22,874 bases of DNA. It comes from a virus. The notes below the pieces were generated by a model. That model saw only the letters and a program-made list of their open reading frames with translations, did no database searches and was not told the DNA's origin. Positions 1-21,886 of this stretch are shown one piece after another (the stretch's first letter is position 1; each line of letters begins with the position of its first letter). The DNA lies in the IMG/VR virus record IMGVR_UViG_3300027861_000207, positions 1-22,874 of that record; one strand, written 5' to 3'. Position numbers and translations under genes: made by a program.

Positions 1-1
1 C

Positions 2-202
2 AGCGTGCACCACTGCCGCCGCCCGTTCGCGGCGCAGGCATGGCTTGAGGCGACGCCGATAGATGACATCGGCATGCCGCCCACCGAGACGGAGCCGTGC
101 CCGGGGTGGGAGGCGAAGGAGGTGGACGGCAAGCCCCTATGCGCGGAGCATGGGTTCGACCCCTCGGACACGAGCGAGGATCCGTTCGGGGAGGTGGAGT
201 GA
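2..202 (+). CDS. Small zinc-binding protein, 5' end probably cut by the window
   Basis: The reading frame is open back to base 2, so the true start may lie upstream; the only start codon inside is a GTG at position 5. The visible 66 residues hold an HHC near the N-terminus and a late PLCAEH, a spacing seen in small phage treble-clef or zinc-ribbon proteins in which an early Cys pair is followed by a C-x2-H pair. The stop shares one base with the ATG of the next gene (TGATG), so the two are translationally coupled. The function is not recognised; zinc binding is inferred from the Cys/His pattern only. Confidence 0.5.
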   Translation, partial: SVHHCRRPFAAQAWLEATPIDDIGMPPTETEPCPGWEAKEVDGKPLCAEHGFDPSDTSEDPFGEVE

Positions 203-507
203 TGTCGTCTGCATACGCGGTACTGAGGGTTCGTGTGGAGCCAGCGGACTTCGACGATATGGCGGATTCCGACGAGGGACTGAGCCCCATCGAGTCCCCC
301 AGCCCGTTCACGCCGGGAGAGGTCATCATCTTCCAGGAGACCAAGGACGGCGTGGACACGGACAGGACGTGCCTCAAGCTCGTGAACGCGATCGTCCTCT
401 GCGACGATCCACACCACCGAGGACTGGCCGTCGCCCTGGTCTCGCTCTCGCCAGATCACGAGCGCATCGTGCGCGGGGCGATGGCACTGCAGGATGGTCA
501 GCCATGA
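202..507 (+). CDS. Hypothetical protein, possible DUF3850/ASCH-like fold
   Basis: This is a 101-residue protein. The ATG at 202 was chosen because it overlaps the previous stop and makes an ATGA junction with the next gene; a longer frame opens at 97 but would run through the upstream gene. The order of elements resembles small PUA/ASCH-like phage proteins (DUF3850): an opening strand with VEPADFD, a central F-x-PGE turn like the usual F-x-VGD, and a final strand AVALVSLS. The usual FEIRKND stretch is missing, so the assignment is weak. Such domains are thought to bind nucleic acid. Confidence 0.6.
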   Translation: MSSAYAVLRVRVEPADFDDMADSDEGLSPIESPSPFTPGEVIIFQETKDGVDTDRTCLKLVNAIVLCDDPHHRGLAVALVSLSPDHERIVRGAMALQDGQP

Positions 508-821
508 GCGACAACCAGGATTTCTACGACCGCATCGAACAGCACCTCGCAGCCGCCAAGAGGATGGCCAGGGATCAACTCGATGACCCGACGAACGATG
601 ATGTGCTGTCGCTGCTGCGGCAGATCTGCCTGGAGCAGAGCCGGCTGGTGATGGCGGCGGCGAAGAAGGCGGCGAAGAAGGCGGCGAAGAATCCCGCGAG
701 CAAGGCGGACACGGGCAGGGCAACGAAGGCGCATCAACGTGAGACGCACGTGACACCGCCTAGAATCGACGCCACCGCGCTACCCTTACGCGGGTATGCC
801 GAGAGCTACGATCGCGCTTAG
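504..821 (+). CDS. Hypothetical protein with a Lys/Ala-rich C-terminal half
   Basis: The product is 105 residues. The start at 504 overlaps the previous stop by four bases (ATGA). The N-terminal half is a predicted helical stretch with charged residues (DFYDRIEQHLAAAKRMARDQ). The middle holds an AAKKAAKKAAK tract, histone H1-like in composition, which could bind DNA non-specifically. No known family is recognised. The 21-base gap to the next gene and the low-complexity tail leave the exact C-terminus unremarkable. It belongs to the leftmost coupled cluster with the two genes before it. Confidence 0.6.
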   Translation: MSDNQDFYDRIEQHLAAAKRMARDQLDDPTNDDVLSLLRQICLEQSRLVMAAAKKAAKKAAKNPASKADTGRATKAHQRETHVTPPRIDATALPLRGYAESYDRA

Positions 822-842
822 GCGGCGGCTGGCATAGGTAGA

Positions 843-1247
843 ATGGCTGAAACGGGGGGATGGATAGGAGGGATCGTGGGAGATCGGAAGATCAGGAAGA
901 TGCTTGCGACGGTGACGATCGGCGAAGGGTACGACGGCACAGTGAACGACGCGTGGACGGCTCCCCCGGAAGTCGACGACATCATCGATCACCTGCTGGA
1001 GAGGCCGGTTGATGCGCTCGATGTCATGCGCGCGCTGTCAACCGCCAAGATCGCAGGACCATGGGAAGGCCCCGACTTCTTTGGCAGACATCATCGGGCG
1101 TGCGCCGAGGGAATCGCCGCGTGGGTGTACGACGGCGGTGGAGACTCGCAGCATATTTCCGGCTGCGTGACCGCGGCAACGAAGCATGCCGCCGATCGCG
1201 CCCTCAAGGCAGCAGGGTGGGTGCTTGCTGACGAGGTGCCGGAGTGA
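843..1247 (+). CDS. Hypothetical protein, paralogue of the 2967-3440 product
   Basis: From ATG 843 the product is 134 residues. A GTG at 876 is an alternative start, with AGGAGG about four bases upstream, better than the weak site before 843. Residues about 50-75 (HLLERP, then an AGPW motif) and the C-terminus (KHAAD, AL-x-AAGWVLAD) match the 2967-3440 protein closely, so the two are paralogues with a divergent middle. No domain family is recognised. The stop overlaps the GTG of the next gene (GTGA), which indicates coupling. Confidence 0.65.
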   Translation: MAETGGWIGGIVGDRKIRKMLATVTIGEGYDGTVNDAWTAPPEVDDIIDHLLERPVDALDVMRALSTAKIAGPWEGPDFFGRHHRACAEGIAAWVYDGGGDSQHISGCVTAATKHAADRALKAAGWVLADEVPE

Positions 1248-1444
1248 TCCGCCGATCGCCACCAAAGATCCGAACACAGCCCTACGTCATCACCACGAGG
1301 AAGCGAGACGGCGGCAACGCCTACGCCACAGGGGCGGCGACGTATGCAGGGGCGCTCGCGAGGATCGCCATGATCCGAAGGTGGTACCCAAGGACGGAGA
1401 CGGAGATCGAGCACGGCAGCGGCGAGCAAGGGAGGCTGTTTTGA
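1244..1444 (+). CDS. Small basic hypothetical protein
   Basis: The product is 66 residues and starts at a GTG that overlaps the previous stop as GTGA. It ends at a TTGA junction with the RusA-like gene. The protein is rich in Arg and Tyr and has a YATGAATYAGALARI segment followed by a basic stretch. No family is recognised. Its place between two coupled genes, with no gap on either side, is the main support for its being real. Confidence 0.55.
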   Translation: MIRRSPPKIRTQPYVITTRKRDGGNAYATGAATYAGALARIAMIRRWYPRTETEIEHGSGEQGRLF

Positions 1445-1959
1445 TCCGCATCACCGTACCAGGAGAGGCCCGCCCGTGGAGAGCTTCGCAGACCGTCAGC
1501 AAGGGCGGACGCACGTGGACCCACCGAGAGGATGGCCAGGAGGAACAAGAGCACCACGTCAGGCACTACGCAAGCGAGGCCATGGAAGGCCACGAGATCA
1601 TGGAGGGGCCGGTCGTGCTGTCGATCACGATCTACCGTGCTCGAGGGCTGAAAAGCATGTCGGGTGTCAAGCGAGACGCGGCGCTGTACGACCTCGTGAG
1701 GCCGACGACGCGGCCGGACTCCACCAACTTGTGTAAGGCGATCGAGGACGGGCTGTCCGGCGTGGTGTTCGTGGACGACTCGCAGGTGGTGGAGACGACG
1801 ATCCGCAAGCGGTACGGGATGCCGCCGAAGGTGATGATCAGCGCGAAGGAATGGGAGCCGGATACATGGAGGCTGTTCGACTTCGAGCGCAAGGGCAAGC
1901 GCTGGGCATCGTGGCTATTGAAGAACCTCCCATCGTGGCTCACGGTTCCAGATGCCTGA
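1441..1959 (+). CDS. rusA: RusA-family Holliday junction resolvase
   Basis: RusA endonucleases cut four-way DNA junctions during phage recombination and before packaging. The TTG at 1441 is taken as the start because AGGGAGG lies five bases upstream and the TTGA overlaps the previous stop; the protein then opens IRITVPGEARPW, the usual first strand of RusA. It has 172 residues, somewhat longer than E. coli RusA (about 120). The catalytic block at 91-117 reads RPDSTNL-CK, then EDGL and FVDDSQV. Asp93, Lys99 and the Asp112-Asp113 pair are present. The position matching the second metal-binding Asp (Asp72 in E. coli RusA) is Thr95, as I recall for many phage relatives. Residues 20-60 are a charged insert. 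Confidence 0.85.
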   Translation: MIRITVPGEARPWRASQTVSKGGRTWTHREDGQEEQEHHVRHYASEAMEGHEIMEGPVVLSITIYRARGLKSMSGVKRDAALYDLVRPTTRPDSTNLCKAIEDGLSGVVFVDDSQVVETTIRKRYGMPPKVMISAKEWEPDTWRLFDFERKGKRWASWLLKNLPSWLTVPDA

Positions 1960-2383
1960 GTGCCGCACCGCCGCCCGCTGCCCATGCTGGCGACAACACC
2001 ACGACGAGAAGACCCAGGTGCTGCACATCGTGCTCGATCTCGCCCTGCTGAACCTGGATCGCATGTACGACATCCGCAACCCCGTACGCGCCCCCGATGG
2101 AGGATGGTGGGGACGGTGGGATACCGACGGCACCGAGATCGCGATCGTGCCGGATCGGTTCAAGGCGGAGTTAGACGATCGTGGCATCGAGTGGATGCCG
2201 ATCATGCGTCGGCTCAAGATCGAATCGTGGGCGACGATGACGGACTCCACGTGGTGCAGCCCTGTTAGGATCGGCGATCAGCGTAAGAGGTGCGCACGCT
2301 TCCCGATGGAGGCATTCATCGAGGCGTTGGATGCAAATCCAAACACGCTTCGTGAGCCTCGCGCACGCGCCCGCGCCCTGTAA
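1952..2383 (+). CDS. Hypothetical protein
   Basis: The product is 143 residues; its ATG lies eight bases inside the end of the RusA-like gene. The N-terminus has CRTAARCPCW with three Cys and then HH, which could bind a metal. Residues 30-75 look like alternating strands rich in Trp and Asp (GGWWGRWDTDGTEIAIV). The C-terminus is Arg-rich. No family is recognised. It is the last gene of the first cluster, followed by the only sizeable non-coding gap on the left side. Confidence 0.6.
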   Translation: MPECRTAARCPCWRQHHDEKTQVLHIVLDLALLNLDRMYDIRNPVRAPDGGWWGRWDTDGTEIAIVPDRFKAELDDRGIEWMPIMRRLKIESWATMTDSTWCSPVRIGDQRKRCARFPMEAFIEALDANPNTLREPRARARAL

Positions 2384-2676
2384 CTAGTCACATACCAAGC
2401 ACCTATGTCCTAGGATCGGAGCTATGGCTTCTCTAAAGGCAGCGTTCCGAGGGATCGGAGTTAAGAGGGGTGAGAACCAAGGAATGCCGCGCACGCCCGG
2501 CATACCATCCCCTTCACGCGCGCGAGGCATCGCCCCTTTCTTGCGCCGATCTTGCACCTGCTGCGATCCCCGTGGTAGCGTGCTCACGAGTGGCCGATCA
2601 ACCGACTTCACCCCGTCGTCTGCCGTCTCCCAAGGTCACTCATCCTTGGCGGGCGGCGGGGTGCGTTGGAGGGCAT
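2384..2676. other. Non-coding gap with short repeats, possible control region
   Basis: No convincing gene lies in these 293 bases. They hold a near-identical 12-base direct repeat, GGATCGGAGCTA at 2413-2424 and GGATCGGAGTTA at 2452-2463. There are also two 6-bp hairpins with 8-base loops: ATGCCG/CGGCAT at 2484-2503 and CCAAGG/CCTTGG at 2630-2649. A TAGGAT at 2411-2416 could act as a -10 box, but no clear -35 accompanies it. The gap separates two runs of coupled genes, so a promoter for the downstream run is plausible. No T-rich terminator is visible. Confidence 0.35.
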
Positions 2677-2970
2677 ATGCCGGTAGATGACGGGTGGAGC
2701 GAGGACGGCGACTCGTACAGCCGGATCGGACAGGATGACGACGGCGGGCTAGTGAAGCGCCTCGGGCCGGGATACATCGAGTATCTAGACGCCGACGAGA
2801 TCCGGGCAGCATTCGACCGCCGCGACGCTCGGATCGCCGAGTTGGAGGCAGCGCTGGACGGCTCGCTGAGAGAGGGTGAACCGTGCCCGTGGTGCGGTAA
2901 GCGTCGTGATCCTCACCACGCGGAGTGCCCGACTGCCGCCCTCATGGGTTGGGGAGTGGAGACGCCATGA
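2677..2970 (+). CDS. Small acidic protein with a C-terminal zinc-binding motif
   Basis: The product is 97 residues. The start at 2677 was chosen because TTGGAGGG lies just upstream and the frame before it has no coding character. Residues 45-70 (DADEIRAAFDRRDARIAELEAAL) look like a short coiled coil. They are followed by CPWCGKRRDPHHAECP, a C-x2-C-x6-HH-x2-C cluster that probably binds zinc. This layout is common among small phage proteins of unknown role. The stop overlaps the next ATG by four bases. Confidence 0.7.
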   Translation: MPVDDGWSEDGDSYSRIGQDDDGGLVKRLGPGYIEYLDADEIRAAFDRRDARIAELEAALDGSLREGEPCPWCGKRRDPHHAECPTAALMGWGVETP

Positions 2971-3440
2971 GCGACGAACGCACCCTCACAACCCTGTGCC
3001 GCCGCCTTGACGCCGATCACGCCCTCGACGTTGACGCGGTGGACCCGACGCCCGCCGACATCGTGGCGCACCTGCTGGAGCGGCCTGACGATGCTTGGGA
3101 GGTGCTGCTGCAGCTTGCCGGGCGTGTGGCGGGGCCGTGGGTGGACGAGACGATCCCCCGCGGGGAGATCATGCGCCGCTACCGATACGGAACAACATGG
3201 CTACTTATCGAGGCCGAGTCGCTACCGGCCGGATTCGTCGACGTGAATTCATACGCAGGTAAACGCCCTGCGGTGCAGCATGACAGCATGGCCGACGCCA
3301 AACACGCCGCCGACGCCGCCCTCACCGCCGCCGGGTGGGTGCTCGCGGACAAGGAGATCATCGGCCGCACCATCGACCACGGCGCTACCGGCGCACTCGC
3401 CCCCACCTGCGGGCCTCGGTTCGGGGCGGACGATGACTAG
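2967..3440 (+). CDS. Hypothetical protein, paralogue of the 843-1247 product
   Basis: The product is 157 residues; the start at 2967 forms an ATGA overlap. It shares HLLERP, AGPW and the C-terminal KHAAD/AAGWVLAD blocks with the 843-1247 protein. It has a longer middle (about residues 60-100, with several Tyr and Trp) and an extra tail of about 28 residues after the shared block. The conserved ends with a variable middle suggest one fold with a changed recognition part. No database family is recognised. It is coupled to the zinc-ribbon gene downstream, whose ATG lies inside its last codons. Confidence 0.65.
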   Translation: MSDERTLTTLCRRLDADHALDVDAVDPTPADIVAHLLERPDDAWEVLLQLAGRVAGPWVDETIPRGEIMRRYRYGTTWLLIEAESLPAGFVDVNSYAGKRPAVQHDSMADAKHAADAALTAAGWVLADKEIIGRTIDHGATGALAPTCGPRFGADDD

Positions 3441-3711
3441 TTGCCCCGACTGCGGTTCCCCGCTGATCTCCATCGGCCCGCTTGTGGAGTGCACAGGCTG
3501 CGCCTACGGATGGGAGTCCGACGGCCCGATGACCGGCGAGACGAAGGACGCGATCGGTGGATTTGTCGCGTATCTGCAGGCCCTGAGCCTTCGCCAGCGA
3601 CGCGACGCCATGCTGGAGCTACTCGACCACGCGTGCCAGCGCTGCGGCTCTGAGCTGCCGAAGTGGGGGCCGTGCGAGGTGTGCGGGCAGTTGCGGCCGG
3701 ATGACGAATGA
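3433..3711 (+). CDS. Double zinc-ribbon protein
   Basis: The product is 92 residues. It has one Cys knuckle pair at each end: CPDCG with CTGC in the first 25 residues, and CQRCG with CEVCG in the last 25. A helical linker lies between (about residues 36-65, KDAIGGFVAYLQALSLRQRRDAMLELLDHA). Two C-x2-C ribbons around a helix are typical of small nucleic-acid- or protein-binding adaptors; the target is unknown. The ATG at 3433 overlaps the previous gene's end by eight bases, and the stop overlaps the next ATG by four. Confidence 0.7.
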   Translation: MTSCPDCGSPLISIGPLVECTGCAYGWESDGPMTGETKDAIGGFVAYLQALSLRQRRDAMLELLDHACQRCGSELPKWGPCEVCGQLRPDDE

Positions 3712-4013
3712 CCCTCCCCACCCTCACAACCCACCCCCGCTACCTCGCCCTCCCATGGGCCGGGTGCCTCGCGGTCAAGATCAGCAAGTCCAGCGACGCG
3801 CCGTTCGTGCCTGACATCGACTCACCAGCCTTCCTCGGCCTGATCGCTGCCGAGATCGTGGCATGCGGGGGCACGGTCGATCCTCACTTCCGCGGCAACG
3901 TCATGGCGTTGGACCTGCTGGAGCTGTGGCGGTTGGAGGACATCAAAGACACGTGGCTTGAGCGGCTGGCGGCGCGGAAGGCGGCTAGGAAGCCGGTTGC
4001 TGCGCGCGGGTAG
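3708..4013 (+). CDS. Hypothetical protein, last rightward gene before the leftward island
   Basis: The product is 101 residues and starts in an ATGA overlap. It opens with TLTTHPRYLALPWAGCLAVKI, continues with a helical middle and ends with an Arg/Lys/Ala-rich tail (RLAARKAARKP). No family is recognised. It meets the HNH endonuclease gene tail to tail with a 54-base gap. I see no strong terminator in that gap. Confidence 0.6.
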   Translation: MTLPTLTTHPRYLALPWAGCLAVKISKSSDAPFVPDIDSPAFLGLIAAEIVACGGTVDPHFRGNVMALDLLELWRLEDIKDTWLERLAARKAARKPVAARG

Positions 4014-4067: not shown

Positions 4068-4580
4068 CTACGGCAGATGGCGCCATGTTCTGCGTTTCCT
4101 GATGCCGGAGATGGCGCTCGGTGTAATTCCGAACCTTTTTGACAGCGCGACCCCCGTCTCATTAGACGCCCGAATCTCAAGAACCTGCGCTTCGTTCAAT
4201 TTCGCGGTAAAACTCTTCTCCCCACGCAGCGAAGTGCCGTGCCGCACCCTGTCCTCTCCGTTTTCCTTCAACGTTCCCCACGCGAGATTATGGGGAACGT
4301 TGTTGGTTTGCTGGCCGTCGAGATGACGAAGCACAAGGCCAGTTGGCCTCGGGCATATGAAAGCCTCAGCTACCAAGGACGCGACTGATACAGATCTTCC
4401 TCTTTTTCTTTTGTCGCGCAGCCCTGCCCTCAAGTAGCCATGGCCAACAAACAGGGTTAGCATGTGGGGGGAGGTGGCCCTCTCGTTTCCTGGGCCGTAT
4501 CTGTTCCACGACCGAACACGCCCGATGCTGCTGACTTCGTACAGCGGCCATCCGACTGCTTCTCTCCAATCCTCTTCCAT
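4068..4580 (-). CDS. NUMOD4-HNH homing-type endonuclease
   Basis: This 170-residue protein has the build of a free-standing phage homing endonuclease, which cuts a target lacking the gene and so spreads itself. The N-terminus (EDWREAVGWPLYEVSSIGRV) is a NUMOD4 DNA-binding motif. Residues about 82-107 carry the HNH core (RHLDGQQTNN, then NLAWGT and KEN). Residues 127-169 are an HTH module ending in RTWRHL. The start at 4580 was preferred over a longer frame to 4688 because GGAGG lies seven bases upstream. It has its own promoter (4677-4685) and a hairpin in the leader, as expected for an inserted mobile gene. Confidence 0.85.
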   Translation of the reverse strand: MEEDWREAVGWPLYEVSSIGRVRSWNRYGPGNERATSPHMLTLFVGHGYLRAGLRDKRKRGRSVSVASLVAEAFICPRPTGLVLRHLDGQQTNNVPHNLAWGTLKENGEDRVRHGTSLRGEKSFTAKLNEAQVLEIRASNETGVALSKRFGITPSAISGIRKRRTWRHLP

Positions 4581-4597
4581 GCCAACCTCCACACCCC

Positions 4598-4637
4598 CGC
4601 CTTGGGTTGCGTTGAACCCAGGAGATTCCCCAAGGCG
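4598..4637 (-). promoter_or_regulatory. Leader hairpin before the HNH gene
   Basis: A perfect 9-bp inverted repeat, CGCCTTGGG at 4598-4606 and CCCAAGGCG at 4629-4637, encloses a 22-base loop. In the leftward transcript the hairpin ends seven bases before the ribosome binding site GGAGG (4586-4590, plus-strand positions). It could shield the translation start or block read-through from upstream genes. Homing endonuclease genes of T4-type phages are known to carry such hairpins; the same role here is inference. Confidence 0.5.
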
Positions 4638-4676
4638 AGGATGGGAGTAGACGGTTAACTGATTCAACGCAGAACC

Positions 4677-4685
4677 ATCATAGCA
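4677..4685 (-). promoter_or_regulatory. Extended -10 promoter for the HNH gene
   Basis: On the minus strand the sequence reads TGCTATGAT: a TATGAT -10 box (5/6 match to TATAAT) preceded by the TGN extension. No good -35 is seen, which extended -10 promoters tolerate. Transcription would start near 4670, about 90 bases before the HNH start. The same 12 bases (plus strand CCATCATAGCAC, 4675-4686) recur at 19342-19353 before another leftward gene. Confidence 0.55.
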
Positions 4686-4706
4686 CACCGCCTGCGTGCT
4701 TTACGC

Positions 4707-5078
4707 CTAGAGGTTCCCCATCATCCCGCTCGCGTACCATGCGAGTTGTACGCACTCCGCATTGTCCCTCGCTTCCGGTGGAGTCGTCGCGTAGCACCAC
4801 GCCTCGTCGCCTTCATCCAACTCACCGACACGCCGGTTGCAGTCGGCGTACACGTCGTTCCACGTCTCGCACGGCTCAACCTCGGCCATGGGGAACACGC
4901 TGCCGTCGTCGCCCGGCCGGTAGTCGTCTTCGGCATAGCAGTACATCGCCGTGTGGTTGTCCTCCCACGTGCCCTCGCAGGTGACCCACAGATCCGCGAA
5001 GGCCGCGCACCTGCGCTCGCAGTCGTTGGAGTAGCAGCCCGCGAGGGTGGCGATCAGGATCAAGGGTAGGTAGCGCAT
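4707..5078 (-). CDS. Cys-rich lipoprotein
   Basis: This 123-residue protein begins MRYLPLILIATLAGC, a short signal peptide ending in an LAGC lipobox, so it should be exported, lipidated at Cys15 and held in a membrane. Eight further Cys are spread over the rest of the chain (about residues 20, 24, 34, 47, 69, 80, 94, 108), enough for four disulfides in the periplasm. The mature part is acidic. AGGAGGG lies four bases before the ATG. Phage lipoproteins can act in superinfection exclusion or receptor masking, but no such family is recognised here. It follows the amidotransferase gene by 39 bases and is probably co-transcribed with it. Confidence 0.8.
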   Translation of the reverse strand: MRYLPLILIATLAGCYSNDCERRCAAFADLWVTCEGTWEDNHTAMYCYAEDDYRPGDDGSVFPMAEVEPCETWNDVYADCNRRVGELDEGDEAWCYATTPPEARDNAECVQLAWYASGMMGNL

Positions 5079-5117
5079 GAGGCCCTCCTGTATGGATGTT
5101 ACACGATGCGGCCGGGA

Positions 5118-6356
5118 TTATTCCGTCACCACGTGCCGCAGCCTGTCACCGTCCCACAGATGCGGCGATCGGAACCCGGCCGCCAGCTCATGCAGGTAGC
5201 CTCGCGACATCTCAGGCACCTCGAGAGCCGCGAACGCCTCGGGCATCTCACCACGCCTCACGGACAGGTACGCCATCACGTCGTCGGCGAAGCGCTCCGG
5301 CCACTCGTGGTCGAACCGCCGCACCAGCGCCACGCCCTCGGCCCGGGTGATGTCCCCGCTGCGGATCTCCTGGGATGCGTCGTACGTGGCCCGGCCGATG
5401 CCGAATTTCACGCGCGTCGTCCAGTAGTGGAAGTCGTCGATCTTGTCGTCGATGGAGTTGTACTTGCTGTAGGTGCCCGGCGTGCGTTCCGGTGACGCCT
5501 CGAATCCGCCGTGCTTGACCGCGTAGTAGTACGCCGACTGCGGGTGCCATCGCAGGTAGTAGCCGAGGTAATGCACGTCCACGCCGCCCGCGTCGAGGGC
5601 ATCGGGATCGGCTGGGAGGTACGGGGCCAGGTTCGATCCTCGCACGCCGTACCGCTCGCCGAGTTCGGCCACGGACACGCCCGACAGGTAGACGTCCCGG
5701 GGATCGGTGGCGGTGAAGTACCTGTGACTGCGCACCGCCGTCTCCGTGTCGATCTGCGGGTTGCCGTACTCCGCCTCGTTCTCGCCGTAGAACACGAGCC
5801 GCAGCCCGTGCTGCAGCGCCACCTTGGGAGCAAGCGCCTTCTGCCCGACGATGAACGGCTGAAACGGGTGGAACAGGTGCTGCACGGCCAGCCGCGTGAG
5901 CAGCCGGTGCACGCGCCCGTTCGGCGTGTAGAGGATGTTGTCGATGCCGGAGTGAATCCACCGTTGGAAGTTGGCCCACCCCCACGGCGTGTACATGTGC
6001 GGCGCCCACGTCACGGTCAACGGGTGCATGCCGTAGACGGTGCTGAGCACGTGCGAGGCGTAGAAACTGTCCTTCCCCCCCGATCCCGGGCACAGGCAGT
6101 CGTAGGAGCCGTCTGCGCTGCGGTACCGATCGCACAGATCCCGCAACTCGCGGTCACGCTCGGCCCAGTCGGTGAGCGCCTTCGCCTCGGCCACGCGGCA
6201 CGCATCGCACACGCCCTCGTCGTCTAGGTGGATCGTGTCCTTGCGGCTGTCGGCGGTGTGCTGGAATTCCACCGCGGAGTTGGGCCGCTGGTTTGAGATG
6301 ACGCAGCGGGTGCAAAATTGGACGTCAGGCGGTAGGCCGTACAGGGTCTCTGTCAT
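5118..6356 (-). CDS. N-acetyl sugar amidotransferase (PseA/WbpG type)
   Basis: This 412-residue enzyme belongs to the PP-loop ATP pyrophosphatase group that converts an N-acetyl group on a nucleotide sugar or sugar acid to an acetamidino group (WbpG/PseA, TIGR03573-like). The N-terminus has two Cys pairs, C15-x2-C18 and C50-x2-C53, a likely zinc site. Residues 90-99 read PGSGGKDSFY, the PP-loop that binds ATP. The next block (VTWAPHMYTPWGWANFQRW) is typical of the family. The length fits known members (about 370-410). GGGAGAGG lies seven bases before the ATG. It is unusual in a phage and suggests modification of a surface glycan; the partner that supplies ammonia (a HisH-like protein) is not in the window. 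Confidence 0.88.
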   Translation of the reverse strand: MTETLYGLPPDVQFCTRCVISNQRPNSAVEFQHTADSRKDTIHLDDEGVCDACRVAEAKALTDWAERDRELRDLCDRYRSADGSYDCLCPGSGGKDSFYASHVLSTVYGMHPLTVTWAPHMYTPWGWANFQRWIHSGIDNILYTPNGRVHRLLTRLAVQHLFHPFQPFIVGQKALAPKVALQHGLRLVFYGENEAEYGNPQIDTETAVRSHRYFTATDPRDVYLSGVSVAELGERYGVRGSNLAPYLPADPDALDAGGVDVHYLGYYLRWHPQSAYYYAVKHGGFEASPERTPGTYSKYNSIDDKIDDFHYWTTRVKFGIGRATYDASQEIRSGDITRAEGVALVRRFDHEWPERFADDVMAYLSVRRGEMPEAFAALEVPEMSRGYLHELAAGFRSPHLWDGDRLRHVVTE

Positions 6357-6768
6357 GTCGATACCTCTCCCACCTCACCCGCTGCCGGGCGGCGAATTCA
6401 CCATCACAGATCGAGCACCGCGCGCGTCGATGCGGGGCGGCCTCTGTCGGCTGTGTGAGCGCAACCCCATGAACGGCGCAGTGGGTACGCTTCCGCAGCC
6501 TTCGCGCCTCGATGCCGAGCCCGTGGGCATGCTTGCGCCACCCATGGGCGTGCGCGCAGCCTCGACACGTCCAGCCAATCACGGGCGAGTAATCCTCACC
6601 CCACGCCGCGGTAAGCGCCATCCGCTCGCACGTCGCGCTTCTGCCGCACTCGCATCGGAACCGCAGCTCCAGCGCCGTCAGCGCCTCACGTGGCCCGACG
6701 CGGTAGCGGTCGCGCTTGAGGGTGCACGGGCGCTCGTTGCCGTGGATGTCGAGGCGTAGGCGGGTCAT
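6325..6768 (-). CDS. Cys/His-rich hypothetical protein
   Basis: The product is 147 residues. It starts in an ATGA overlap with the gene before it and overlaps the start of the amidotransferase gene by 32 bases. Four Cys pairs or groups are visible: CECG, a CRGC with HAHGWRKHAHG after it, a CAVHG and a final CSIC. Together they suggest one or two zinc-binding folds. The chain is Arg-rich, which would fit nucleic-acid binding. No family is recognised. Its place in the leftward operon puts it under the control region at 7086-7147. Confidence 0.6.
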   Translation of the reverse strand: MTRLRLDIHGNERPCTLKRDRYRVGPREALTALELRFRCECGRSATCERMALTAAWGEDYSPVIGWTCRGCAHAHGWRKHAHGLGIEARRLRKRTHCAVHGVALTQPTEAAPHRRARCSICDGEFAARQRVRWERYRHDRDPVRPTA

Positions 6769-7085
6769 GGCTTGCCGTCGATGATCTTGAGCATGTCGTC
6801 TGCGATCTCGTCGGCCACGTCATGGCGCTCAAGCCACGCCGCCCGATCCTCGCCGTCCATGTCGTCGCGCGGGCGATCTCCGTATGAGGCGTTGTCGCAG
6901 GCCAACTCACGAAGCGCGGTGATCTTGGCTTCCAGCACATCGCTCATCACCCTCGCCTCGTCCAGCCGTTGAGCCAGCAACAGGCAGTCATCTGCCGCCA
7001 TGGTTGCGGCCGGGCATTCGTCACCTTTGGCGAACATCTCTGCACGCTTCACAACCTGCCGCTCGTCGTCTGTCAGGTACTCCAT
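6765..7085 (-). CDS. Acidic helical hypothetical protein, first gene of the leftward operon
   Basis: The start at 7085 gives 106 residues (MEYLTDDERQVVKRAEMF). It is preferred because GCGAGG lies five bases upstream, whereas the longer forms from 7118 or 7154 lack a ribosome site and would cover the operator-like repeat. The protein is mostly helical and acidic, with a leucine-rich middle (CLLLAQRLDEARVMSDVLEAKI) that may form a coiled coil. No family is recognised. It is the promoter-proximal gene of the operon that also carries the amidotransferase. Confidence 0.6.
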   Translation of the reverse strand: MEYLTDDERQVVKRAEMFAKGDECPAATMAADDCLLLAQRLDEARVMSDVLEAKITALRELACDNASYGDRPRDDMDGEDRAAWLERHDVADEIADDMLKIIDGKP

Positions 7086-7147
7086 CACCGCCTCGCTTTC
7101 ACCCAGATACTTGCACATGGACAAGCACATGTGCAACCCTACCACCC
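7086..7147. promoter_or_regulatory. Divergent control region with a 9-bp inverted repeat
   Basis: These 62 bases separate the leftward operon from the rightward HTH gene. TTGCACATG at 7111-7119 and CATGTGCAA at 7128-7136 form a perfect inverted repeat with an 8-base spacer, a typical size for a dimeric HTH operator. GATACT at 7106-7111 could be a rightward -10 box (4/6). On the minus strand TTGCAC could be a leftward -35. Either promoter would overlap the repeat, so binding there would control both directions. The adjacent HTH protein is the obvious candidate ligand; that is inference. Confidence 0.5.
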
Positions 7148-7552
7148 ATGCCAAAGCTCACCGAAACCGCGGTGCTCGCCATCCTCGCATCCCCGCACAC
7201 CGATCGGTTCGTCGCCGAGGTGCACGGGGTGTCGCGGGCCACGATCCGAGACGTGCGCACCGGCCGCTCATGGAAGCGCCTGCACGCGGTAGCGGCCGCC
7301 TCAGACGCCATCGACCGCGAGGGCTACGCCGAGATGGTACGGCTACAGCGGCAGCGCGCAGCGAGGCGCACAAGCCCCTTGACGGCTGCCCTCGTGATGG
7401 AGATCCGACGCTCCACCGAGTCACAGGCAGCGCTTGCCCGCCGACTGGGGATCGCCCGCGGCACCGTCCAGAATGTCCAGGCGGGGCGGACGTGGGGCGA
7501 CGTGCGCGAGCATGAATCAGCGGCGACGCAGCCGCGGAATGGAGCTCCATGA
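7148..7552 (+). CDS. Two-module HTH DNA-binding protein
   Basis: This 134-residue protein is made of two HTH modules, about residues 7-45 and 80-119, joined by a charged linker. Each ends in a (V-x-x-G)R-S/T-W motif: VRTGRSWKRL in the first, VQAGRTWGDV in the second. Both line up without gaps with the C-terminal module of the HNH endonuclease at 4068-4580 (ending RKRRTWRHL). It thus looks like a regulator built from homing-endonuclease DNA-binding parts. No ribosome site is visible before the ATG, so the mRNA may be leaderless or nearly so. It lies beside the inverted repeat at 7111-7136 and may repress both divergent units. Confidence 0.75.
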   Translation: MPKLTETAVLAILASPHTDRFVAEVHGVSRATIRDVRTGRSWKRLHAVAAASDAIDREGYAEMVRLQRQRAARRTSPLTAALVMEIRRSTESQAALARRLGIARGTVQNVQAGRTWGDVREHESAATQPRNGAP

Positions 7553-9210: not shown

Positions 9211-9229
9211 CTCGCCCAAAGGAGATCCC

Positions 9230-9628
9230 ATGCCGCAAGTAGGTTACGAAGTCCGCCTCTACAACAAGGGCGGGCAGTACGTCTCGGCCGAGGCTGACGA
9301 CGAGAAGGACGCCACCGAGAAGGCCGAGGCGAAGTTCGAAGACTACTTCGGCAAGGCTGAGATCGCGCAGAAGATCGTCAAGCGCCCCGAAGACTCCACC
9401 CCGCTCGACATGAGCTTCCACGGTCGCCTCGGCCGCAGCCTGCAACGCCTGCGCGTCAACGCCGACAAGACGCAGAAGCCCGTTGCTCAGGCGGTGGGCA
9501 CGTCGCCATCACAGCTCAGCAAGTGGGAGAACGGCCACGACGAGATCGGCTCGCGCAACGCGGACAAGTTGCTGAAAGCGATCGGCGCCACGGTCCCGGA
9601 TCTGATCGCGGAGATGTCGACGGAGTAG
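9230..9628 (+). CDS. XRE-type HTH regulator with an extra N-terminal domain
   Basis: The product is 132 residues; AAAGGAG lies five bases before the ATG. Residues 65-125 form an HTH_3/XRE domain (LGRSLQRLRVNADKTQKPVA, then SPSQLSKWENG and DKLLKAIGA). Residues 1-60 are a separate part: a strand-like start (YEVRLYNKGGQYVSAEA) and a long charged helix rich in Lys and Glu. I do not recognise that part. It is the first gene after the TGACACA array and heads an operon that ends in the terminases, so it is a candidate controller of the late genes or of its own promoter. Confidence 0.8.
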   Translation: MPQVGYEVRLYNKGGQYVSAEADDEKDATEKAEAKFEDYFGKAEIAQKIVKRPEDSTPLDMSFHGRLGRSLQRLRVNADKTQKPVAQAVGTSPSQLSKWENGHDEIGSRNADKLLKAIGATVPDLIAEMSTE

Positions 9629-13281: not shown

Positions 13282-13628
13282 CCGACGAAAGCGTGACCGT
13301 CACCCACGAAGACGGCGAGGCCGTCATCCGGTTCCCATGCGACGACAGGCGCAGAGCGCAGCGCGCGGGGCGGGCGGTGGCCGAGTGCCTGAGCGATGGC
13401 GAGCCACGGCTCCCCGAGGGGCACTACATCACGGCAGACGGCCACGTGTGCGAGTCGTTGAGGATCAACGGGTTTGTGTACCATATCCCGCAGGAGCCCT
13501 ACCGCGATCCCGATTACCCCACCGTCGTTGACGACTGGATGCAAGACGGCGAGCTACATCTTCGAATGTCAGACGACGTGGAATACGCGATCCCCGTGAA
13601 GGCGGTGGACAAAGGTGGTGACGAATGA
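13278..13628 (+). CDS. Hypothetical protein
   Basis: The product is 116 residues, starting and ending in ATGA overlaps. It is strand-rich at both ends (SVTVTHEDGEAVIRFP; DGELHLRMSDDVEYAIPV) with a helical, basic segment between (DDRRRAQRAGRAVAECL). No family is recognised. It directly precedes the DUF115/Maf-like gene. Confidence 0.55.
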   Translation: MTDESVTVTHEDGEAVIRFPCDDRRRAQRAGRAVAECLSDGEPRLPEGHYITADGHVCESLRINGFVYHIPQEPYRDPDYPTVVDDWMQDGELHLRMSDDVEYAIPVKAVDKGGDE

Positions 13629-15145
13629 CCGCCCTCCCACCACGCCCGCAGATGTCGCCGGAGCAAGAGCGCGCGGCGTCCATGTCAAACACCGTCGCCG
13701 CGTTCGGCGCCCTGTGGTGCTCGCAAGGCGCGCTGAACCTCCCTGTGCTCGCCAAGTGGCCCACGGTGGCGAAGCTCGGCGACGCCTTCAAGGGACAGCC
13801 CGCGGTCATCATCGCGCCGGGGCCGTCGCTGTCGCAGAACCTGCACCTCGTGAAGCAGCTCAAAGGCCGCGCGGTGCTGATCGCCTTCTCGCGCTGCCTC
13901 GAGATCCTCAAGCCCGCTGGGATCGTGCCTGACTTCGTGGTCGTGCTCGACCCGCTGGATCTCACGTACCACTTCGACGGGTACGACGCGCGCGAGATCG
14001 AGTGCCTGTGCGTGGGTATGACGTGCAACCCGCAGTTGTACCGACTGCCCGTCAAGCGGTTCGCCAGCTTCTCAGGAAACGCGGTGATCGAGGCGTGGCT
14101 GTATGACCACCTCGACGGGCCCGACACGTGGCTTGATACCTCGTGCTCGGTGGCTACCACGTCGACCTCGCTGGCTCTCAAACTGGGCTGCGATCCCATC
14201 ATCTACGTGGGCCAGGATCTCAGCTTCCCCAAGGGCAAGTATTACGACAAGGGAAGCCGCGACGGTGGCGCCACGCTGCAGAAGATCGAGCCGCTGAGCG
14301 CCGAGGATCAGGCGGAAGAGGATCGCATCCTCAAGACGCTGGGAGCCCTTGCGCAGTGCGGGGATCAGGCCGCTCAGATGGCAATCCAGCGTATCTACAG
14401 CGAGCGGGACGTGCGCGAGAACGGCAGCGACGTGGCTGGGTTCAGCGCAGAAGCCAAGGAAGTCGAAGCCACGGGCAAGGCTGTGCTGTCGAGGATCGGC
14501 CGCGTGGCCAAGGTGCCAGGCTACTACGGCGGCAAGGTGCCATGCACTCCCTCGTTTTCGTGGGTGGGTGAGTGGCTGGAGAAGCGCGCGCAGTTGCAGC
14601 CGTTCGGCCGCATGATCAACGCCACCGAGGGCGGGCGGTACATTCAGGGCATGGTGCACGCGCCTCTGCAGACCGTGATCGACGGTGGCGAGGTCAAGAG
14701 GGGCTCTGAGGTCCACGCTACGCTCGATCCGCTACCCGATACGCCCGTGGACGTGCCCGGCGTGCTCGATGGCATCTGCGAGGCTCTGGATACCGACAAG
14801 CAACGCGCCGATCTGCTCGCCATGTCCCACGATATCCGCGACTCCATGACCACGGCGGGCGCTGCCGCCTTCCACCTCGACAACGCTATCGACAGGCGCT
14901 ACCCCGCGCGCACGCTCCGCGGCCTGGAATCGTGGATGGTGGACGCCATCGCGCCCGCGTCCATGTGGGCGAGCGTGTGCATGCAAGCGCACACCGCCAC
15001 GCTCACACAGCAGATGAACGCGACGGGCGGCGATGACGCATGGCGCACCGCGCTCGCGGATCTGTGCCGAGCGGTGGACACGACACGGAAGATCGCGCAG
15101 GCGTGTTTCGACGTGGCGATCGGTGAGATGGAGGGCGAGGGATGA
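13625..15145 (+). CDS. DUF115 / Maf-like protein (MptE-like fold)
   Basis: This 506-residue protein carries the DUF115 signature shared by archaeal 6-hydroxymethylpterin pyrophosphokinase MptE and bacterial Maf proteins, which attach pseudaminic or legionaminic acid to flagellin. Visible motifs are APGPSLSQNL (65-74), PDFVVVLDP (102-110) and a CSVATTSTSLALKLGCDP (174-191) followed by YVGQDLSF (194-201). The C-terminal 250 residues are less typical. Phage members exist next to terminase genes and have no proven role. It is tightly coupled in the operon. Together with the PseA/WbpG-like enzyme it points to sugar-linked modification, though the substrate cannot be read from sequence. Confidence 0.8.
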   Translation: MTALPPRPQMSPEQERAASMSNTVAAFGALWCSQGALNLPVLAKWPTVAKLGDAFKGQPAVIIAPGPSLSQNLHLVKQLKGRAVLIAFSRCLEILKPAGIVPDFVVVLDPLDLTYHFDGYDAREIECLCVGMTCNPQLYRLPVKRFASFSGNAVIEAWLYDHLDGPDTWLDTSCSVATTSTSLALKLGCDPIIYVGQDLSFPKGKYYDKGSRDGGATLQKIEPLSAEDQAEEDRILKTLGALAQCGDQAAQMAIQRIYSERDVRENGSDVAGFSAEAKEVEATGKAVLSRIGRVAKVPGYYGGKVPCTPSFSWVGEWLEKRAQLQPFGRMINATEGGRYIQGMVHAPLQTVIDGGEVKRGSEVHATLDPLPDTPVDVPGVLDGICEALDTDKQRADLLAMSHDIRDSMTTAGAAAFHLDNAIDRRYPARTLRGLESWMVDAIAPASMWASVCMQAHTATLTQQMNATGGDDAWRTALADLCRAVDTTRKIAQACFDVAIGEMEGEG

Positions 15146-16315: not shown

Positions 16316-17878
16316 ATGCACATCGATCGCATGTACACCACCCGCGGGCAGCTCGTCACGCCCAACCCCGTGCAGTGGTGGATTCTCGAGGCGTTCAGAT
16401 CCTCGCGCGTGTTCGACATCCTCGTCAGCGGTGGCCTAGGCGGTGGCAAGACGGCGGTAGGCGCGCAGGCACTCGTCGAGACGGCAGCGCAAAACGCCAA
16501 CATCACCGACGGTGCGCCGCTCAGGTACGGCATCGTCTCGCCGAGTTTCAGCCAGCTCAACCGCGTGACGCTGGAGGCGTTCAGGGGAGTGTGGAACGCC
16601 ATGAACGATCAGAAGGGTTCGTCACCGCAGGCTTTCTCCGCATGCGACAGCGTGATCCGGTGGGACAAAAAAGAGTGCATCATCTACACGAAGCTCGGCG
16701 CGGAGTTCGTGTACGGCACAGGCGACAACGCAGCCCGCGCGCTTGAGGGAAGCGAGTTGACCGCGGCGTGGGTCGACGAACCGGCGCTGTGCAAGGAAGA
16801 GACGCAGGCGCGCATCCGCGAGCGCTTCCGCCAAAACGTGTTCGGGCCGACGGGCGCCACGATCCAGGGCATCATATCCACCGGCACGCCTCGCCCGGGA
16901 TGGTCCCTCGCGTGGCTGCACAAGACGTTCGGCAACCTCGACGACTACACCCCCAACGGGCTGCGCAAGTGCCGCGTAGCGCTGCCTACGCGCTTGAATC
17001 TGCCCAACCTGCGGCCGGGGTACCTCGACGAACTCCGCAGCATGTACAGCCCGCGCATGATGGAGGCGATGCTCGAGGGCAAGTTCGTCGTGCTCACAGG
17101 CGCCGTCTATCCCGATTGGGGCGAGGGCAGCGCCGTAGACTACATCCACGATCCCAAGCGCGAAGTCATCATCGGGCTAGATCCCGGCTACCGCCGTGCG
17201 GCGTGGATCTGCACGCAGCCGACGCACGCGTACCAAGCCGGGCTCCCGCTGATCGGGACCGAGGGCTGGACGATCTTTGACGAGATCATCACAGCCGACA
17301 CCGACACCGAGCGGCAGACGCTGCAGTTACTCCAAAAGCCGTGGATGAAGGGCCGTACCACCATCACGATCGCCCACGATCCCGCAGGCGTGGCGAAGCA
17401 AAGCGCCGTGGGCAAGTCGGACATGGACATCATCAAAGACACGTGCCGCAAGGCGGGCGTCAACGTCGTGTTTAGTTGCTCCCGCAAGCCCGAAGACCAC
17501 GCGATCCAGGCGAGGTGCGAGCGCCTACGCGCGCTGATCAAGTCGGCTGACGGCGTGCAGAAGATGACGATCGCGAGGCCGATGCAACGCAGGCAGTACA
17601 CGCCGGGCGAGGATGGGCGCAAGTCGGTGGGGATCTACGAATCGCTGCTTGAGCAGCCGTTCAAGGACGGCAAGGACATCCCAGACGACTCGACGGTGTG
17701 GAAGCCGTGGACGCACTCGGGAGACGCGCTGGGCTACCTCGCGGTGTTCGTGGCGCCGATCTTCGCGCACGACGATCAGGGGTGGAAGGACGCGGCTGAG
17801 GAAGGGTATGAGGAGCGGGCGTTGGGTGGTGAGATGGGCGACTTCGGTGGGGATGGGTTCGGGGTGGCTGACTTCTAG
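16316..17878 (+). CDS. terL: Terminase large subunit
   Basis: This 520-residue ATPase-nuclease pumps DNA into the prohead and cuts it. The Walker A loop is GGLGGGKT (39-46). The Walker B strand with catalytic Glu is AAWVDEPA (150-157). The coupling motif is ISTGTPRP (187-194). The C-terminal RNase H-like nuclease shows three acidic motifs: IIGLDPGY (285-292, Asp289), IAHDPAG further on, and HSGDALGY near the end. The length is normal for the family. The ATG at 16316 lies three bases after the small subunit. The stop is followed at once by a new promoter. Confidence 0.93.
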   Translation: MHIDRMYTTRGQLVTPNPVQWWILEAFRSSRVFDILVSGGLGGGKTAVGAQALVETAAQNANITDGAPLRYGIVSPSFSQLNRVTLEAFRGVWNAMNDQKGSSPQAFSACDSVIRWDKKECIIYTKLGAEFVYGTGDNAARALEGSELTAAWVDEPALCKEETQARIRERFRQNVFGPTGATIQGIISTGTPRPGWSLAWLHKTFGNLDDYTPNGLRKCRVALPTRLNLPNLRPGYLDELRSMYSPRMMEAMLEGKFVVLTGAVYPDWGEGSAVDYIHDPKREVIIGLDPGYRRAAWICTQPTHAYQAGLPLIGTEGWTIFDEIITADTDTERQTLQLLQKPWMKGRTTITIAHDPAGVAKQSAVGKSDMDIIKDTCRKAGVNVVFSCSRKPEDHAIQARCERLRALIKSADGVQKMTIARPMQRRQYTPGEDGRKSVGIYESLLEQPFKDGKDIPDDSTVWKPWTHSGDALGYLAVFVAPIFAHDDQGWKDAAEEGYEERALGGEMGDFGGDGFGVADF

Positions 17879-19343: not shown

Positions 19344-19373
19344 ATCATAGCACGCGGGTAACGCTATCCCCAA
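19344..19373 (-). promoter_or_regulatory. Extended -10 promoter for the leftward RHH cassette
   Basis: The minus strand reads TGCTATGAT (19344-19352), a TGN-extended -10 box, with TTGGGG (19368-19373) 18 bases upstream as a weak -35. The -35 reaches the first base of the portal start codon, so the two transcription units are back to back. The core is identical to the HNH promoter at 4677-4685. Confidence 0.55.
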
Positions 19374-21886
19374 TGGCAGCCGCCACCGTCACCCGCCACG
19401 TTCACACGAGGCGAGCATCCTCACCACCCGCGCGCAAGCGGCAGCGCCCCTCCATGCGGATCTATGAAGACGGCGACGCGTTCGCCGAGTTGGAGCGCAG
19501 GGAGTCCAACGGCCAGCCAATCGGGTGGAGCGGCACGGAACTCGCGGGCGGATACTTCACCGGCGTCGATCCCAACGCCGAGATCGACAACGACGCATGG
19601 CTCGGCGACACGTCTGCACCCGGCTTCGGCGAGCAGATGGCCAAGGAAGACGGCGAGGTAGGCGCGTCCGTTGACGAGTGGATGGAGGCGGTCCAGAACG
19701 CCCCGTGGACGGTGCAGCCGGGAGACGCCGACGACCCGCAGCAGCACATGATGGCCGAGTTCATCCGCCGCATGCTGTTTGAGGTGAGCGAGACGAGTTG
19801 GGAGACGAATAGCCGTCACCTAGCGCGCTCCGTGCTGTGGGGCTGCTCACCGTCTGAGATCGTTACCGGGTACGTCAGCGACGACGAGACGCCGGTGTAT
19901 GAGCAGGTCAAAGAGCCGGGCCGCATGGCGAAGTGGACGCCTACCGGGCAGTTCGATCGCGGTCACTACGTGCTCACGGACCTCGCCCCGCGGTCGCCAG
20001 CATCCATCGAGCGGTGGTTGCAGGACAAGGAAACGGGCCGATTCGCAGGCATCGAGCAGATCGGCCGCATGGACGACACCACGGGGCTAGGTACAGGGAA
20101 CATCGAGATCCCCGCCGATCGCCTCGTGCTGGTGACGTACGGCGGTGACTCCGGCAACTGGCAAGGCGTGAGCCGCTACCGCCCCGCATACATCCTGTGG
20201 AAGGCCCGCAAGGTGCTTCTGCGGATGCACGTGATCGCCGCTGAGAGATTCGGCGTAGGCGTCCCGAACGCCAAGGTAGTAGCCAAGCCCGGCGAGGTGG
20301 ATGACAAGACGCTGCGCGACAACTGGGCCAGCGTCAAGCGCATGGTGGCCCGCTATCGCGGCGGCTCGCAGGCATGGATCGCCACGCCCTACGGGATCGA
20401 CGTCGACATCATGGACACGGCGCTTCCCGCCGCAGACGCGATCCTCAAGCTGTATCAGGCGCTGAGCACCGAGATCCACATCATCGGGCAGACGCAGCAT
20501 CTGGTGCAGGGTACGCAGTCCGGCAGCGGTGGCCTCGGCACGCAGGGCCTTCGCGATGGCCAGTCCAGCGACTTCCGCAACACGATCAATCCGCTACTCG
20601 ACAGCATCGCCCGCGAGACAAACCGCCGACTCGTCAAGCCGCTGATCGATCTCAACTGGGAAGGCGTACGCACGTACCCGTTTCTCCAGGTGGGTGACGC
20701 CGCACAGCAGAGCGTCAAGGAACAGCTCGAGGCTTACGAGATCGGCGTGCGCTCGCGTGCGCTGACGCCGCAGCCCGAAGACGAAGACTTTTTCCGGCAA
20801 GAGTCTGGGTTGCCCGTTCGTGTCGAAGTTGAGGCCGAAGAGGAGCCGGACGAAGATCCCGACGACGACACCACCGACGAGCCCGAACAGCTCGCCGAGT
20901 GCGCATGCGGCTGCGGTGGCGTGGACATGTTCGCCGACATGCCCTTTGAGGCCGAGCAGGGTCGAGGCGCCGAGCGCGTGCGGCAACTCGCCGAGTCGAA
21001 ATTCGACGACCGATCGAGTCGCGTGGCCCGTGAAGACGCCATCACCAGGATCTCGGTGGACACGCACAACACGATCCGCCGTCGCGTGCTCGAGCCGTAT
21101 CTAGAGAAGATCGCGCCCGCGCTCGCGAGCGGTGACGCCGCTGCCATCGCAAGGACGCCGCTACCAGGCAAGCCCGCCCTCGTTCGCACGCTGCGCGACG
21201 GGTACCAGGACGTGCGGCAGTTGGGAAAGGCGGAAGTCAAGCGCGAGACGAAGCGGATGAGCAAAGATCCCGACTTCGCCGCCGACATCGCCGAGGCAAT
21301 GGCCGAGTGGGCGCAGGACAACCCGTCGCTCTTCGCCGACAACCCCAGCGGGCAAGCCAACTCGGTCGACGACATCGTGCGCAAGGCGGGCGAGATCGTA
21401 AAGAAGATCGGCCTGATCGCCACGACCACCGCGTCCATGCTGTTCGGCCAAGTCGACGCCACGATCAACAGCTATCTGCAGCAGGTGCCCGTCAACGAGT
21501 GGGTGCCGTCCGCGATCATGGAGCGGGTGCAGTCCGTCATCACGCCGCGCACCATCGCAAGCGACGCAGTGATCCAGGACTCCAACAGCGTCTACAGCGT
21601 CGGCAGAGCCGAACAGGGGCGCATCGAGGGTGCTGGGACTGTCGTCTATACCGTGAACCCTGAGATCGGCATCAGCGGCCCTCACGTCGTGTGCGTCGAG
21701 TGCGAGGCGACGGCAGCGAGCGCGGCGAATCCGGCCGAGGTGGGAACGCCTCAAGAGGAACAGCTCATGGCGCCGAATCCGCTGTGTTTGTCCACGCTTA
21801 GCGGCGTGAACAACTGCTGGTGCACGCTGATCTATCTCTCCACAACGAGCACGGCGGACGCGGCCGATGCGGCGGGGCTGGCATGA
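19373..21886 (+). CDS. Portal protein (DUF935, Mu gp29-like) fused to MuF-type head protein
   Basis: This 837-residue protein joins two head functions. Residues about 30-480 match the DUF935 portal family, which forms the ring through which DNA enters; the hallmark is EIHIIGQTQHL, then a Gly/Ser stretch and a late RLVKPLIDLNWEG. An acidic hinge (about 480-530, EEEPDEDPDDDTTDEPEQ) follows. Residues about 540-815 resemble Mu gpF/SPP1 gp7 head-morphogenesis proteins, ending in a Cys-containing part (VVCVECEA; NNCWCTLIYL) like their usual D-x-x-C-x-x-C and C-R-C ends. In Mu the two are separate genes. No ribosome site is clear before ATG 19373, and the first 27 residues are basic and low in complexity. 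Confidence 0.85.
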   Translation: MAAATVTRHVHTRRASSPPARKRQRPSMRIYEDGDAFAELERRESNGQPIGWSGTELAGGYFTGVDPNAEIDNDAWLGDTSAPGFGEQMAKEDGEVGASVDEWMEAVQNAPWTVQPGDADDPQQHMMAEFIRRMLFEVSETSWETNSRHLARSVLWGCSPSEIVTGYVSDDETPVYEQVKEPGRMAKWTPTGQFDRGHYVLTDLAPRSPASIERWLQDKETGRFAGIEQIGRMDDTTGLGTGNIEIPADRLVLVTYGGDSGNWQGVSRYRPAYILWKARKVLLRMHVIAAERFGVGVPNAKVVAKPGEVDDKTLRDNWASVKRMVARYRGGSQAWIATPYGIDVDIMDTALPAADAILKLYQALSTEIHIIGQTQHLVQGTQSGSGGLGTQGLRDGQSSDFRNTINPLLDSIARETNRRLVKPLIDLNWEGVRTYPFLQVGDAAQQSVKEQLEAYEIGVRSRALTPQPEDEDFFRQESGLPVRVEVEAEEEPDEDPDDDTTDEPEQLAECACGCGGVDMFADMPFEAEQGRGAERVRQLAESKFDDRSSRVAREDAITRISVDTHNTIRRRVLEPYLEKIAPALASGDAAAIARTPLPGKPALVRTLRDGYQDVRQLGKAEVKRETKRMSKDPDFAADIAEAMAEWAQDNPSLFADNPSGQANSVDDIVRKAGEIVKKIGLIATTTASMLFGQVDATINSYLQQVPVNEWVPSAIMERVQSVITPRTIASDAVIQDSNSVYSVGRAEQGRIEGAGTVVYTVNPEIGISGPHVVCVECEATAASAANPAEVGTPQEEQLMAPNPLCLSTLSGVNNCWCTLIYLSTTSTADAADAAGLA

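Follow-up and report, generated by a model that had tools for sequence, protein, structure and literature searches.

A nuclease-free phage protein composed of two helix-turn-helix modules of the HNH endonuclease tail family

The DNA stretch analysed here (the window) spans an entire IMG/VR virus record, 22,874 bases long and with an overall GC content of 65%. Its gene at 7148-7552 encodes a stand-alone protein of 134 residues, made up of two helix-turn-helix (HTH) modules of the kind that forms the C-terminal tail of phage HNH endonucleases. We lean slightly towards the reading that this protein is a nuclease-free DNA binder of the tail family, most likely a local regulator and probably a repressor, whose modules were split from a nuclease.

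The features that carry the comparison are the following.

4068-4580, minus strand: I-HmuI-like HNH endonuclease of 170 residues, with NUMOD4, HNH_3 and an HTH tail
4074-4205, minus strand: HTH tail of the HNH enzyme, a module of 44 positions (A3 profile 74 bits, its own sequence being part of the profile)
7148-7552, plus strand: stand-alone 134-residue protein with two HTH tail modules and no nuclease domain
7154-7282, plus strand: module A (A3 profile 51.2 bits, E 2.9e-15)
7265-7369, plus strand: predicted long helix joining the modules, residues 40-74 (AlphaFold2, block means of pLDDT 62-81)
7379-7504, plus strand: module B (A3 profile 48.5 bits, E 1.9e-14)

Two tail-family modules in the 134-residue protein

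The HNH protein belongs to PHROG_59 (E 5e-38) and carries the Pfam domains NUMOD4 (26.7 bits) and HNH_3 (25.3 bits), both of which exceed the cut-off. Its start is best placed at ATG 4580, with GGAGGT just upstream, giving the product of 170 residues. The predicted model matches I-HmuI (1U3E) with E 9.2e-7 and a probability of 1.00, while in a phmmer comparison with I-HmuI the nuclease part is covered and the tail lies outside the match. The tail comprises the last 44 residues, in which the HTH is followed by a terminal G/R-x-x-W-x-x-L/V motif; residues 127-169, singled out in the original prediction, correspond to it. With 56.5% GC and a GC3 of 63%, compared with a GC3 of 72-89% in most genes of the window, the HNH gene differs in base composition from most of its surroundings, as expected for a mobile gene. 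No group I intron was found around it, and Rfam has no match anywhere in the window. The HNH gene contains, at 4269-4302, a perfect 12+12 bp inverted repeat with a spacer of 10 that exceeds in length all others found in the window.

Relatedness of the three modules was assessed with a profile (A3) of 38 HNH-linked tails that excludes both halves of the 134-residue protein. Run over the whole window, it matches at exactly three places, namely the HNH tail, module A and module B, and hhalign compares it with the A+B pair at a probability of 99% (E 6e-18). A held-out tail model gave 48.7 bits for each of the two modules, with maxima of 10.8 and 8.2 bits among composition-matched shuffles (2000 per module). 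The profile does not match the HTH_3 protein at 9224-9628 at E 0.01, and is thus no general HTH detector. PHROG_59 likewise matches the 134-residue protein in two stretches (E 1.1e-8), through the zone of the profile that also matches the HNH tail. L4, I12 and W42 are invariant in the family alignment (A1) and G27 is nearly so, all four being present in both modules, and the family match continues past the HTH through the C-terminal G-R-S/T-W motif. BLASTP aligns the HNH protein with module B of the 134-residue protein over 42 residues without gaps (E 5e-8). Module A alone went unseen when compared with module B by BLASTP and has no Pfam match, so that the tandem becomes clear only with a profile. 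Pfam NUMOD1 (PF07453) did not match the HNH or the 134-residue protein at E up to 1, and relatives carrying between one and six modules likewise gave no match at E up to 0.1 or 0.01.

In a gap-free alignment, the identities are 35% between module A and the HNH tail, 38% between module B and the HNH tail, and 31% between A and B. HNH tails share a mean identity of 37% among themselves (sd 7%), and the mean identity to these tails is 36% for module A and 34% for module B; the two modules are thus as near to HNH tails as these are to one another, and sit within the family. The low A-B identity and the average similarity of both to the tails argue against a recent duplication. Nor was the 134-residue protein recently copied from the adjoining HNH gene, since its modules are no nearer to that tail than to others and its gene has 70% GC compared with 56% in the HNH gene. 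Support in a tree of the modules is too low to separate an old A/B duplication from two sources.

AlphaFold2 predicts three helices in each module with high confidence, at residues 6-14, 19-26 and 30-38 in module A (pLDDT about 92-95), 80-88, 93-100 and 104-111 in module B (pLDDT about 94-96), and 130-138, 143-150 and 154-161 in the HNH tail. Helix offsets of 0, 13 and 24 residues are identical in the three modules. The helix that links A and B is predicted at lower confidence, and the relative placement of the modules is thus not fixed by the model. The low confidence of this placement, together with the tiny size of the modules, accounts for a PDB fold search with the 134-residue model that returned generic HTHs and no significant match. 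TAL effectors, which reached very low E-values when the tail profile was searched against PDB sequences, were set aside as an artefact of roughly 2-bit scores summed over repeats, none of which is significant singly.

Both the gap-free alignment of the HNH tail with the two halves of the 134-residue protein, as originally predicted, and the existence of the tail module as a stand-alone tandem are upheld by these data. Placement of the three stretches in different HTH families had been named as the outcome that would speak against the prediction; the profile and predicted-structure comparisons instead point to a single family.

Tail modules with and without a nuclease in other phages

Related tails were gathered from reference phages and IMG/VR. 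An HNH domain was detected by our own HNH model in 56 of the 75 module-carrying frames, and several of the remaining 19 (L057, L062-L065 and L034) appear, by eye, to carry different HNH-like nuclease parts. Most HNH enzymes have one tail. The HNH enzyme L056 has two, and its double tail aligns end to end with the 134-residue protein (E 5e-10); p93 of Myxococcus phage Mx9 (L087:665-1765), an HNH_3 endonuclease, has four HTH tails in tandem, scoring 39-49 bits each. Both resemble the 134-residue protein in their tandem tails and linkers, but have an HNH_3 nuclease in front. The DNA-binding array of Mx9 p93 is unusually long.

Nuclease-free proteins with a single module are encoded in L005, L023, L036, L049, L061 (two) and L069/L070; those of L005, L023, L036 and L061 share with the 134-residue protein the module without HNH, but have one rather than two. 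Several of these single stand-alone tails retain the nuclease-side linker. One of them is a protein of 72 residues (L005:9941-10156), in which the HNH leader RFWSKV runs straight into the linker RGEKQG and the tail, and which looks, from its sequence, like an HNH protein with the nuclease core deleted. Its gene sits just before an apparent portal gene. In Synechococcus phage S-EIVl (AHV82181, L014:600-977), an NrdR-like zinc ribbon is fused to one tail module. This protein matches PHROG_20467 over its full length and has no HNH domain, so that the name 'HNH endonuclease' of PHROG_20467 is probably wrong. Larger arrays also occur: a nuclease-free protein of 366 residues in a 266-kb IMG/VR phage contig (L082:839-1939, minus strand) contains five to six diverged module copies, which score 8-20 bits singly, one of them being only partial, and E 1e-22 as a whole protein. 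The only relative that searches with this array returned was Mx9 p93 among the phages; IMG/VR gave back the array alone, and genomes gave nothing. The regulator T5 D5 (PHROG_323), to which the array had pointed, has no tail module, as the tail profile scores 0.1 bits against it (E 36).

Bacterial chromosomes rarely carry the module: of 398 genomes from one phylum, 11 have it, and no tandem modules were seen in them. Whole-protein homologues of the 134-residue protein were found neither in IMG/VR nor in plasmids, nor in phages, where only HNH tails were matched. Since the 134-residue protein consists only of two tail copies, the tail module is used by phages both with and without a cutter, and the range of architectures supports the predicted exchange of parts between nucleases and nuclease-free proteins. 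The L005 protein favours the direction from nuclease to stand-alone module, short of proof for the 134-residue protein. This protein may accordingly be regarded, by analogy rather than through a direct ancestor, as derived from a nuclease, and would have arisen by separation of the tail modules as seen in other phages.

Genomic setting and proposed role

The phage belongs to a tailed-phage lineage with distant relatives only; its large terminase (16316-17878, PHROG_2) shares about 23-26% identity with those of the nearest described phages. Genes point rightward over 1-4013, leftward from 7085 to 4068, and mostly rightward again from 7148. The leftward run extends from 7085 to 4707 and closes, at its convergent end, with the HNH gene; the 134-residue gene is the first of the rightward run, and the two runs diverge from a gap of 62 bp between 7085 and 7148.

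6765-7085, minus strand: divergent neighbour without a family match, heading the leftward run at whose far end the HNH gene lies
7111-7136, no strand assigned: candidate operator between the divergent genes, formed by an inverted repeat with perfect arms of 9+9 bp, TTGCACATG-8 nt-CATGTGCAA
7549-7755, plus strand: small zinc-ribbon-like reading frame whose ATG overlaps the stop of the 134-residue gene (Pfam zinc-ribbon matches are sub-threshold)
9224-9628: ordinary regulator of the HTH_3 (Cro/C1) type, a separate candidate repressor of the phage
19373-21886: portal protein

Two further genes of the record deserve mention. A protein of 412 residues (5118-6356, minus strand) without Pfam or PHROG match contains CxxC pairs and a GSGGKDS motif and resembles, by eye, an ATP-pyrophosphatase or sugar amidotransferase. 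The gene at 13625-15145, upstream of the terminase gene, encodes an MptE-like domain (PF01973, 115 bits).

We read the 134-residue protein as a regulator because of the divergent gap, the perfect inverted repeat within it and the position of the gene at the head of the rightward run, and because such DNA-binding parts act as repressors in I-TevI and CapR. Its two HTH units would bind at the inverted repeat (7111-7136), and the bound protein would cover the start of its own rightward run as well as that of the leftward run ending in the HNH gene. Position and candidate operator thus make a putative role as a gene switch likely. Arms of at least 9 bp arise in the 62-bp gap with a probability of 0.00175 in Markov copies of the region, a value calculated after the repeat had been seen. 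No second copy of it was found in the window, which has five perfect repeats with arms of at least 8 bp, this one included; with the longest of the five lying inside the HNH gene, the repeat at 7111-7136 is suggestive and no proof.

Several observations count against the regulator reading. The gene was originally predicted to stand beside a divergent promoter; the divergent intergenic region is indeed present, but the 62-bp gap yielded no sigma-70 promoter, and ATG 7148 is preceded by no clear ribosome-binding site. The other stand-alone modules that were checked have no perfect inverted repeat (arms of at least 7 bp) within 110 nt upstream. To these are added the lack of a whole-protein homologue in IMG/VR, phages and plasmids, the post hoc choice of the repeat, the longer repeat in the HNH gene and the presence of a separate HTH_3 regulator.

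Could the 134-residue protein instead be a functionless remnant of a double-tail HNH enzyme, comparable to L056, which has lost its nuclease part? HNH enzymes with two or four tails do exist, and the L005 protein, with its RFWSKV leader and RGEKQG linker kept beside the tail, has the look of a core-deleted enzyme. Decay is nevertheless unlikely in our view. The frame is intact and GC-rich, and its GC content by codon phase (72/58/80%) is like that of other genes in the window, compared with values of 64/76/37% in the same frame upstream (6923-7147), which are not gene-like; by this measure, the gene is a maintained and GC-adapted one. The 134-residue protein has no HNH match, the only one in the window being that of the gene at 4068-4580, and the other frames of the window showed no trace of an HNH remnant. 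Moreover, the start codon falls at the module boundary, as the protein begins at the module itself (MPKLTE), the stop overlaps the following ATG, and the conserved family residues are retained in both modules.

A broader idea, which we hold only as a speculation of rather low probability, treats the HNH tail as a freely repeatable DNA-reading bead, present in one to six copies per protein and built into nuclease-free arrays including the 134-residue protein, which might recognise composite sites and serve as switches, or else shield homing sites against the HNH enzymes of rival phages.

Somewhat less probable still is that the 134-residue protein is the partner of a nuclease and acts in trans, guiding or blocking an HNH enzyme, for instance as a shield of the homing site or as part of a split enzyme with a separate nuclease. 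The same phage does encode an HNH enzyme with a tail of this family, and in ICP1 an HNH gene without a DNA-binding domain is immediately followed downstream by a gene for a DNA-binding domain (gp115/gp116, PMC10448857). The two genes of the present phage, however, are separated by 2.6 kb, belong to different transcription runs and have unlike base compositions, and modules A and B resemble this HNH tail no more than they do other tails, which gives no indication of a shared target.

That the three stretches are unrelated HTHs made alike by convergence is very improbable: each is only about 44 residues long, HTHs are common and generic Pfam HTH models match module B weakly, but the family profile gives modules A and B 49-51 bits compared with at most about 25 bits for weak HTH-like matches in 45 phage records, shuffles reach 11 bits at most, the HTH_3 protein at 9224-9628 stays unmatched, and the match of both modules extends through G-R-S/T-W.

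Relation to known systems

Homing-nuclease parts that have turned into regulators are already established, as are the NUMOD modules of homing enzymes (PMC1564403). I-TevI represses its own promoter, the DNA-binding part of the homing enzyme acting at an operator (PMC2988022); it differs from the 134-residue protein in that the nuclease is kept and the operator is a site resembling the homing site. CapR of the PLE satellites is derived from T5orf172 homing-nuclease DNA-binding domains, a kind of nuclease in which beads-on-a-string repeats and domain swapping are described, and plant AP2 factors are cited as a parallel (PMC10448857). The likeness to CapR lies in the use of a homing-nuclease DNA-binding domain without the nuclease as a regulator, a role that is putative for the 134-residue protein; CapR is of zinc-finger type and linked to T5orf172, whereas the part found here is a three-helix HTH from HNH enzymes. 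Compared with the PHROG_59 or I-HmuI-type HNH endonucleases, of which the HNH protein of the window is one, the tail module is the same, but the 134-residue protein lacks NUMOD4 and HNH and has two tails. In a small literature search, we found no description of the HNH-tail HTH as a nuclease-free tandem or larger array.

The label 'HNH endonuclease' that databases give to some nuclease-free proteins, as in PHROG_20467, is owed to the tail. In the 134-residue protein, the DNA-binding end of a homing-type HNH nuclease is clearly seen as a tandem protein free of the nuclease, and other phages have intermediates, which range from nucleases with one, two or four tails through a core-deleted form and single stand-alone modules to an array of five to six copies. 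The step from a selfish nuclease to a phage regulator thereby becomes testable in small, single-gene experiments.
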